A DNA stretch of 64,000 nucleotides, from NCBI RefSeq assembly GCF_901686465.1, contig NZ_LR594487.1, positions 2,803,773 through 2,867,772 of the forward strand, read 5' to 3'. The notes under the pieces were generated by a model. That model did no database searches. It saw only the letters and a list, made by a program, of their open reading frames with translations, and had not been told where the DNA came from. Positions 9,634 to 12,555 of this stretch are shown here, one piece after another. The translations under genes were made by a program, and so were the position numbers. Within the stretch, counting starts at the first letter, position 1. Every line of letters starts with the position of its first letter. The stretch is from Halorubrum sp. DM2 (lineage in GTDB: Archaea > Halobacteriota > Halobacteria > Halobacteriales > Haloferacaceae).

Positions 9634-12555
9634 ATGGTACGACCCTCCCGTCGGCGCTTCCTCGGTGGTAGCGCCCTGACGCTCGCCGCGCTGACAGGCG
9701 TTCTCGACCCCGCGACCGACGACCGCTCCCTCGACCGACCGGCCGGAGCGCCGACCGACCTCGACGTCGACGTCCCCGCACCGCTCGCCGACGCGTTCCT
9801 CCCCATCCCGACAGCCGACGCGCTCTCGACGACGTACGCGACGGTCATCGCCGACAGCGTCGACGCCGACGCGGACGAGGACCTGAGCTACCGCGTCCGC
9901 CCTGCGACCGAACGGCTCGACGTCGACGCCGACGAGCTCTCGGCGACCGCCGGGATCCGGACGGCCGACCGCGGCGTCAGGCTGACGACGGCCGTCGGCG
10001 AGTTCGACCGGCCCGACGGCGGCGAGACGGTCGCGGTCGGTGCGGAAGACGGCGAGGCGAACGGTTCGAGCGACGACGCGTCTGCGGACGCCGAGACGAC
10101 GGACGAACTCCCCGCTGGCTGGCGGCTGGCCGAGACGGACGAGACCGCCTTCGTCGCCGGCGACGGCGTCGCGGCGGTCGCGACCGGGGACGGGGCCGCC
10201 CCCGGCCCGCGCGGTCGGTCGAGCGCGTCGGCGGACGACGCCGCGGAAGCGCGGATCGAGACCGCCCGGACCGCCGGCCGCGCGGCCGCGGACGAGGCCG
10301 ACCGCTTCGCGGAGGGGTCGCTCGGCGCGGCCGCGCTCCCGCGACTCGGCGGGTTCGAGACGGTGCTGCTCGTCCCGGACGCCGCGGCCGGTCCGTTCCC
10401 GGCCGGGATCCCGGAGGCCGTCGACGCGTTCGCCGCCGGCTTCGAGGTCGCCCCCGAGGCGCTCCGCGACCTGACCGGGACGGCGGAGAACGCCTACGTG
10501 ATCCGCCCGGCCGAGGACGCGGGACGGCTCTCGGACGAGAGTGCCGAACGGCTGGTGCGTGAGATCGACCCGGCGGTCCCGGTCGAGACCGAGGTCACCC
10601 GGACCGATGGGGTCGTCCTCGTCGACGCCGTCGTCGAGGCACCGCCGGAGCGGGACCCCGAGGCGTCGCCCGACGCGGAAGTTCGGTCCCGGTTCGACCG
10701 CGACGCCGGAACGGTGACCTTCGAACACGTCGAGGGCGAGCCGGTCCCGGCCGCCGAACTGGAGCTGTGGCACGACGGCGAGGAGGTGAGCGACGACGCC
10801 CTCGACAGCGACGCCTTCGAGGCGGGCGACGAGTTCGCCGTCGACACGGGGCTGATCGCCGCCGTCGCGCTGCGGTGGTTCGACCCGGACGCGAACGCCT
10901 ACGACGTCTACGCCCGCGAGCGGGTCGACCGCGAGGCGTTCGCCTTCGAGTACGACCTGTCGACCGAGACGCTGACGCTCACCTACGACGGCGACGGCGA
11001 GGCCGACGCGAGCGACCTCCGACTGGTCCACCGCGCCGACGACGGCGCGCGGACGGTCGGGGACGGATTCACCGACGGGACGCTCGCCCCCGAGGACGCG
11101 GTCACGGTCGAGGGGGTGTCGGTCGGCGACAGCGTGCGGCTGGAGTTCGACGTCGAGCAGCCGCCGGGCGTCGGCGGCGGGTCGCTCGTCCACTACCGCG
11201 CCCGGCCGCCCCGCGTCTGGATCCACTCGCGCGCCGAGGAGGGGACCGTCGTCAGGTACGGTGACGAGGAGTCCCGCCCCGCCGACGCGTTCGTGACGCT
11301 GGTCGACGGGGAGCCGACCGACGCCCAGTTCGCCGACGAGTACGACACCCTCTCGGAGCGGGACGAGTTGGTGCTCGGCGAACTCCCGCTCGGGAGCACG
11401 GTCTCCGTCGAGTGGCGGGAACCGGACGAACCGGTCGTCGTCGCCGAGGAGGAGGTCGCGCCGAACACCCGCGCGTCGATGGAGTACGACCCGGATGCGG
11501 GCGAGGTCACGGTGCGACACCGGCGGGGCCGGGCGCTCCCGGCCTCGGAGTTGGAGGTACAGGCCGACCGGAGCCCGACCGACGTCCAGCCCGCCGACGA
11601 ACTCGACGAGTTCGGTCCCGACGACTCGTTCTCGGTCCCGGTCCCGCCGCTCTCGCGGGTGCGGCTCGTGTGGACCGGCGGCGAGCACGAACACCACATC
11701 GGCGGCACGACCACGGCCCGCGACGCGTTCGCCGCGGGGTACGACGCCGACGACGAGGCGATGACGGTCGAGTATGTCGGCGAGCGGCCGGTCGACCCGG
11801 AGCGGCTGCGGGTGAGAGTTCGGGGCGGAACTGCGTCCCGGGAACAGGAACGCGAGCAGGAGTCGACGTTCGCGGCCGAGTACGACGAGCTGACGACCGG
11901 CGACGCGGTCACGGTCGCGGACGTCGGTCTCGACGACACCGTGGCCGTCAGCGTTCACACCGAGTTCGAGAACGGCTCGATGACCAGCTCAGTCGCTCAC
12001 TTCCCGGCGGCACCGCGCAGAGGGTTCGTCGTCGAGGATGGCGAGGAGGCGTCCGAGACGGTCCTCCGCTACGTCGGCGAGGTCCGCCGCGACGCAGACG
12101 CCTTCCGGGTCCTGATCGACGGCGAACCCGCGGACGCCCAGCCCGCAGACGAGACCGACCGCTTGACCGGCGGAGAGACCCTCTCGCTCGGCGATCTGGG
12201 GGCTGGAACGACGGTCGCCGTCGAGTGGTCCGGGGGGGACGAGACGCGGACCGTGACGGAACACGTGCTCCCGCCGCAGGCGACGTTCGAGGTCACCTAC
12301 GAGCCGGCCGACGACGGAGAGTCGGGCGGCGTCGTGACGTTCGCGCACGCCGGGGGTGACGGCATCGACGCCGAACACCTCGACGTGGCCGTGGAGCCGG
12401 CGACCGACGGACTGCGCCCGTGGGACCCCGACGCCGACTCGGTGACGGCGGGCGACGAGACGACCGTCGCGGTCGACGAGGACGCCCGAATGGCCGTCGT
12501 CGTCTTCCGCGAGCGAGAGCTGCTCCACCGCGAACCGCTCGGGGGCGAGGAGTAG
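9634..12555 (+). CDS. Tat-exported protein with seven tandem pilin-like beta-repeats
   Basis: The 973-residue protein begins MVRPSRRRFLGGSALTLAAL, a twin-arginine signal. Residues about 40-350 form an acidic, Ala-rich domain I do not recognise. From residue 351 to the end there are seven repeats of about 80-100 residues, starting near 351, 434, 527, 612, 697, 795 and 882. Each has the pattern FxYDxxxxxVTxxHxGGxxxxAxxLxV, then an acidic GDxVTV step and a (V/L)xVxW strand. This resembles the beta-sandwich of haloarchaeal type IV pilin domains (Pilin_N/DUF1628). A surface or adhesive role is inferred. There is no C-terminal membrane anchor. Confidence 0.7.
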   Translation: MVRPSRRRFLGGSALTLAALTGVLDPATDDRSLDRPAGAPTDLDVDVPAPLADAFLPIPTADALSTTYATVIADSVDADADEDLSYRVRPATERLDVDADELSATAGIRTADRGVRLTTAVGEFDRPDGGETVAVGAEDGEANGSSDDASADAETTDELPAGWRLAETDETAFVAGDGVAAVATGDGAAPGPRGRSSASADDAAEARIETARTAGRAAADEADRFAEGSLGAAALPRLGGFETVLLVPDAAAGPFPAGIPEAVDAFAAGFEVAPEALRDLTGTAENAYVIRPAEDAGRLSDESAERLVREIDPAVPVETEVTRTDGVVLVDAVVEAPPERDPEASPDAEVRSRFDRDAGTVTFEHVEGEPVPAAELELWHDGEEVSDDALDSDAFEAGDEFAVDTGLIAAVALRWFDPDANAYDVYARERVDREAFAFEYDLSTETLTLTYDGDGEADASDLRLVHRADDGARTVGDGFTDGTLAPEDAVTVEGVSVGDSVRLEFDVEQPPGVGGGSLVHYRARPPRVWIHSRAEEGTVVRYGDEESRPADAFVTLVDGEPTDAQFADEYDTLSERDELVLGELPLGSTVSVEWREPDEPVVVAEEEVAPNTRASMEYDPDAGEVTVRHRRGRALPASELEVQADRSPTDVQPADELDEFGPDDSFSVPVPPLSRVRLVWTGGEHEHHIGGTTTARDAFAAGYDADDEAMTVEYVGERPVDPERLRVRVRGGTASREQEREQESTFAAEYDELTTGDAVTVADVGLDDTVAVSVHTEFENGSMTSSVAHFPAAPRRGFVVEDGEEASETVLRYVGEVRRDADAFRVLIDGEPADAQPADETDRLTGGETLSLGDLGAGTTVAVEWSGGDETRTVTEHVLPPQATFEVTYEPADDGESGGVVTFAHAGGDGIDAEHLDVAVEPATDGLRPWDPDADSVTAGDETTVAVDEDARMAVVVFRERELLHREPLGGEE

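Follow-up and report, generated by a model that had tools for sequence, protein, structure and literature searches.

Type IV pilins are familiar as subunits of filaments, and tandem beta-sandwiches connected by short linkers are familiar from stalks and adhesins of the Ig/FN3 type. The haloarchaeal type IV pilins (PF07790; 8fj5, 8gi2 of Natrinema PilA2, 9myg) share their head beta-sandwich with the Halorubrum protein described here, as well as the conserved patterns T-H-x-G-G and x-G-D and the junction PQA[S/T]F. Unlike the pilins, this protein has neither a class III signal nor an assembly helix, strings seven heads in one chain and possesses a Tat signal and an extra N-domain. Its tandem beta-sandwiches and short linkers also recall the Ig/FN3-type stalks and adhesins, from which it differs in that its heads are of pilin descent. 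Its twin-arginine signal resembles that of the haloarchaeal Tat lipoproteins with lipobox (PMC2945643), but unlike these the protein contains no cysteine at all. A protein with tandem or multiple pilin domains was not found in the literature searched, mostly papers readable without subscription and including passages of PMC4371748; the only match was a paper on a bacterial secreted factor that is pilus-dependent. A paper naming 8fj5 was likewise not found in this literature.

The window analysed is a stretch of 64,000 nucleotides from Halorubrum sp. DM2. An open reading frame on its + strand (9634-12555) encodes 973 residues without internal stop, built from a twin-arginine signal, an N-domain of about 300 residues and seven tandem beta-domains (Table 1). 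The signal had been predicted from the sequence and is borne out: SRRRFL precedes a hydrophobic stretch, as in Tat substrates, and the arginine residues R6 and R7 are invariant in 30 of 30 seven-head orthologues, though the NCBIfam TAT model TIGR01409 gives 9.7 and thus stays below its cut-off of 16.7. A profile of pilin signals, run against the open reading frames of 50 sequences, recovered the pilins and not the window protein, in agreement with the claim that a pilin signal is absent. As for the further claim that the protein has no membrane anchor, neither a lipobox (by regular expression) nor any cysteine is present, which sets it apart from Tat lipoproteins, and a C-terminal hydrophobic stretch is missing as well, but an uncleaved Tat signal is a possible membrane anchor. 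The protein may be soluble, as the original prediction had it. It contains no lysine and two N-glycosylation sequons.

Table 1. Features of the seven-head protein and their positions in the window
Feature	Position	Strand	Remarks
Twin-arginine signal	9634..9723	+	residues 1-30; SRRRFLGGSALTLAALTGVL; without lipobox cysteine; from sequence
N-terminal domain	9766..10671	+	residues about 45-346; two-part alpha/beta fold; common to relatives with 0-7 heads
R1, head type A	10684..10932	+	residues 351-433
R2, head type B	10933..11211	+	residues 434-526
R3, head type C	11212..11466	+	residues 527-611; weakest pilin link
R4, head type A	11467..11721	+	residues 612-696; overlays Haloferax pilin head
R5, head type B	11722..12015	+	residues 697-794
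R6, head type C	12016..12276	+	residues 795-881
PPQATF	12271..12288	+	resembles PQASF helix-to-head junction of haloarchaeal pilins; by eye
R7, head type D	12277..12552	+	residues 882-973; loose grouping with pilins and relatives' single heads

How are the seven repeats related to each other? Comparison of single sequences with 500 shuffles per pair yielded z scores of 13.0 for R1-R4, 10.8 for R2-R5 and 25.7 for R3-R6. R7 was nearest to R1 (z 5.0) and R4 (z 4.7), and several pairs, R3-R7 and R2-R7 for example, stayed at chance level in this comparison. When repeat profiles drawn from an alignment of the 30 seven-head orthologues were compared with each other, 19 of the 21 pairs were related with probabilities of 88-99.9%, and R3-R7 and R6-R7 showed no link. 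By both measures the repeats match each other well above chance, and the predicted repeat starts at residues 351, 434, 527, 612, 697, 795 and 882 are upheld in the alignment and in an AlphaFold2 model. The proposed common motif FxYDxxxxxVTxxHxGG is clear in some repeats, but its literal form is indistinct in others. Judged from the sequences, the order reads A-B-C-A-B-C-D rather than seven times one unit; type D begins with PQA[S/T]F, the sequence that joins helix and head in pilins. This order was not part of the original prediction, nor was the distinct N-domain or the existence of relatives with 0-7 heads. Prolines at the B-C, C-A and C-D junctions (P525, P526, P610, P794, P881) are invariant in all 30 orthologues, which is consistent with a stiff chain.

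Several comparisons link these repeats to pilins. The Pfam model Pilin_N matches the whole protein with 42.7 bits (cut-off 25.2) and, at E<=1, every one of the 30 orthologues (best E 1.1e-14), the match in the window protein spanning profile positions 31-75 only and leaving the signal and helix part uncovered. Since the protein clears the cut-off without this part, a Pilin_N match alone is no proof of a pilin. No lone repeat reaches the cut-off: R1 scores 20.0 and R7 16.8 bits, and R2-R6 do not match. A pilin-only head profile was built from 40 pilin heads of haloarchaeal genomes (4 of 33 loci yielded none by the signal pattern, and the divergent locus L003 was left out). Its E values and probabilities were 4.5e-14 and 98.2% for R7, 1.3e-13 and 98.1% for R4, 4.1e-10 and 96.7% for R1, 1.7e-7 and 93.8% for R5, 2e-6 and 89.4% for R2, 4.5e-5 and 68.7% for R6, and 0.0017 and 15% for R3; null controls with the same profile (seven N-terminal slices and 42 column shuffles) gave about 1% at most. 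Identity between repeats and pilin heads in the profile alignments is 13-21%. Moreover, a full pilin profile found the window protein at E=3.7e-18 among all open reading frames of 50 sequences. A profile combining pilins with heads of types A and D, among them R1, R4 and R7 of the window protein and no B or C repeat of any protein, detected all seven repeats and one pilin in the window genome at E<=1e-5. R3 and R6 are tied to pilins mainly via their sister repeats. Together with the fold match described below, these data confirm that all seven repeats, most clearly R7, R4 and R1, are akin to the heads found in type IV pilins of haloarchaea, as the original prediction of pilin-type beta-domains had it. 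Of a pilin, the head beta-domain is present; what is absent is the class III signal together with the hydrophobic helix used in assembly (roughly positions 1-30 of the profile). That the protein consists of an N-domain and seven pilin-head domains and lacks an assembly helix can be stated with great confidence, and because the helix is missing it should not join a pilus as a pilin does.

Structure prediction points in the same direction. AlphaFold2 with the 30 orthologues gave a model with a mean pLDDT of 80.1, most repeat blocks lying at 80-94, and a pTM of 0.51, which leaves the spatial arrangement of the domains unestablished. The modelled repeat has the pilin head fold: in VIA-align, a re-scoring of Foldseek's list rather than an exhaustive structure search, the best solved match is 8fj5, the type IV pilus subunit of Haloferax volcanii, which superimposes on residues 608-696 (R4) with Z 10.3, an rmsd of 2.6 Å over 89 residues and 20% identity. 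A sequence search of the PDB with the window protein found only 2n2u (OR358) at E 0.038. The N-domain, modelled alone with 44 sequences, reached a pLDDT of 83.5 and a pTM of 0.83. Its nearest solved fold is TP0453, a spirochaete lipoprotein (3k8g, 3k8h, 3k8i, 3k8j) that is alike in overall fold (Z about 10 at an rmsd of 4.4-5.0 Å over about 200 residues) but lacks head domains; at 10% identity, homology is only a possibility, and TP0453 was not recovered by the N-domain sequence profile at E<=1. The first half of the N-domain also resembles TiME, RseB and MucB (Z 5.3-7.8). Kinship of DUF7388 (PF24114) with the N-domain was considered and rejected: a single member in 44 matched weakly (E 0.0018), and DUF7388 is a separate protein, mostly in open reading frames of about 260-360 residues, that does not occur in the window genome. 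CusF, an Xre-like HTH and other Pfam matches were scattered and weak and were likewise rejected.

In a survey of the class, 64 of 292 genomes matched at E<=1e-5, a few of these matches being pilins and not family members; within Halorubrum, 14 genomes had a match and at least 20 had none. Profile scans counted seven heads in 30 proteins, plus one cut short where its contig ends and another broken by a frameshift, six heads in three, four heads in 14 (including one without N-domain match, L066) and one head in 11; nine further proteins have the N-domain without a detectable head, some of them scoring weakly. The frameshift-split orthologue (L056:8992-11993, - strand, genome G153) lies in two overlapping frames and is likely a pseudogene or a sequencing error. 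At another locus (L130:8689-11379, - strand, genome G016) two one-head lipoprotein paralogues are adjacent, one of them split over two frames. A lipobox follows the twin arginines in 0/30 seven-head, 2/3 six-head, 5/14 four-head, 11/11 one-head and 8/9 zero-head proteins, as determined by regular expression with correction by eye for L061, L130, L132 and L136 and by eye for L165 and L166. Nearly all relatives with no or one head are thus putative Tat lipoproteins.

In a tree of heads, the A repeats (R1, R4) fall with the first heads of six-head and of two four-head proteins, and the B repeats (R2, R5) with second heads. The C repeats (R3, R6) join third heads and also heads three to five of six-head proteins. 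The D repeat (R7) groups with pilins, with single heads and with the final heads of four-head proteins. The A/B/C/D order is largely kept over the 13 multi-head proteins in the tree. Exceptions are the last heads of six-head proteins, which stand beside B with low support and are R7-like in the profile scan, and, in three of the four-head proteins (G025, G204, G064), the first heads, which stand beside D; deep nodes, including the grouping of D with pilins, are weakly supported. A ladder D, ABCD, ABCCCD, ABCABCD is the best summary, these exceptions aside. Single pilin-type heads were also seen in differently built Tat lipoproteins, namely a protein of 304-326 residues (L164:1281-2258, + strand) and an 808-residue open reading frame with a Laminin_G_3 domain (L168:2668-5091, + strand); the head would thus be a module that can be carried from one protein to another. 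In other classes of the phylum (L170, L171), pilin-like N-termini and a head are followed by extra regions in larger proteins; from their sequence we take these regions to be PKD-like.

Against seven orthologues the window gene has dN/dS values of 0.24-0.38 and is under purifying selection. An orthologue from a genome of another family (L038:10001-12913, + strand, G069) is 73% identical to the window protein and that of a Halorubrum (G194) 75%, at RpoB fragment identities to the window genome of 89.3% and 99.2%, respectively; the RpoB difference of G069 is the usual one between families. A second genome of the family of G069 (G199) also has 89.3% RpoB identity, but its pilin-head-chain protein is only about 40% identical, so that horizontal transfer is indicated; the gene is patchy and probably moves between genera. 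Neighbours are shared with the window at two of eight named Halorubrum loci. Among the loci listed, no recurrent neighbour or conserved partner gene was found across clades, and one open reading frame, presumably MutY-like, adjoins the gene in one clade and at one further locus. Relatives occur in two of 72,556 plasmid records, both from Natronorubrum and annotated 'hypothetical protein', and none was found in viral contigs. At one locus (L131:8998-11689, - strand) three pilin genes stand in a row, and a headless N-domain lipoprotein lies about 0.2 kb downstream of them on their strand. This lipoprotein has a match in 5 of 145 further genomes of its family, in each case a distant one.

Our preferred reading, to which we give a probability of about 0.5, is that of a Tat-exported, non-pilus protein of the cell surface or extracellular space made from reused type IV pilin heads. 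Its function as a rod or stalk-adhesin is a more tentative proposal, as are the roles of cap, adhesin or matrix protein put forward in the original prediction, and a Pfam scan detected no known adhesive or lectin domain. We infer that an N-domain lipoprotein acquired one pilin head of type D, that this head multiplied to A-B-C-D and that the ABC block then doubled to ABCABCD, in a lineage that is also without lipid anchor. Tat would carry the chain out of the cell, the N-domain would retain it at the membrane or S-layer or in their vicinity, and a rod would be formed by the heads, with binding surfaces turned outward, comparable to Ig- and FN3-type stalks and adhesins. Could the repeats instead be generic Ig/FN3-like beta-sandwiches that resemble pilins by convergence? 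Long Ig/FN3 chains do take most of the top ranks when Foldseek is run with the whole model; this ranking was given no weight as a sign of kinship. Nevertheless, the profile-profile scores with their null controls and the match of the full, pilin-only profile (E=3.7e-18) speak for descent, and 8fj5 stands at Z 10.3 versus 8.0 or less for the remaining beta-sandwich rows. The Pfam scan found no Ig, FN3 or Big family match in the repeats of the window protein at E<=10; among the orthologues, Big_8 (0.018) and I-set (0.22) each appeared in 1 of 30. Convergence is therefore highly improbable.

Alternatively, the N-domain could be the active part, binding lipids or small molecules as lipoproteins of like fold may do, with the heads as mere spacer. 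The nine proteins in which it occurs without detectable head and its fold neighbours TP0453, TiME, RseB and MucB would fit, but at the fold scores given above (rmsd above 4 Å) the likeness carries little functional meaning; furthermore, the head classes remain distinct across large divergence, and dN/dS of the repeats is below that of the N-domain in six of seven comparisons. We consider this unlikely, and slightly more so that the protein interacts with pili, its heads binding pili or archaella laterally, capping them or serving as soluble decoy for pilus-binding viruses or partner cells. The heads are true homologues of pilin heads, type D retains the pilin junction sequence, and Pilin_N proteins are present in 59 of 59 class genomes sampled, so that a pilus partner would always be at hand. 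The L131 locus, where three pilin genes neighbour a lipoprotein with the N-domain, would also fit, yet among the 50 sequences scanned this is the only place where pilins adjoin a family member (L054 and L055 also match but are stretches fetched for their pilins), and no N-domain gene was found at E<=0.1 in 35 pilin loci taken together with 1.5 kb on either side. Pilin adjacency was rejected as a clue to a partner, L131 alone not being clearly above chance, and the low identity to pilin heads also argues against such interaction. More speculative still is a pilus mimic, in which secreted, pre-strung pilin heads imitate the pilus surface without belonging to a pilus, and dock on pili of their own or other cells or absorb pilus-binding viruses; if true, stepwise capture and amplification of heads on a lipoprotein scaffold would be a new route of pilin exaptation.

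In the protein described here, the pilin-type head has been split from its assembly helix, placed after a Tat signal and copied several times, in an order that is for the most part constant. The relatives with 0, 1, 4, 6 and 7 heads suggest the route by which a pilus part was reused in another surface protein and, as living representatives of these copy numbers, provide a testable case of pilus parts made into another surface device.
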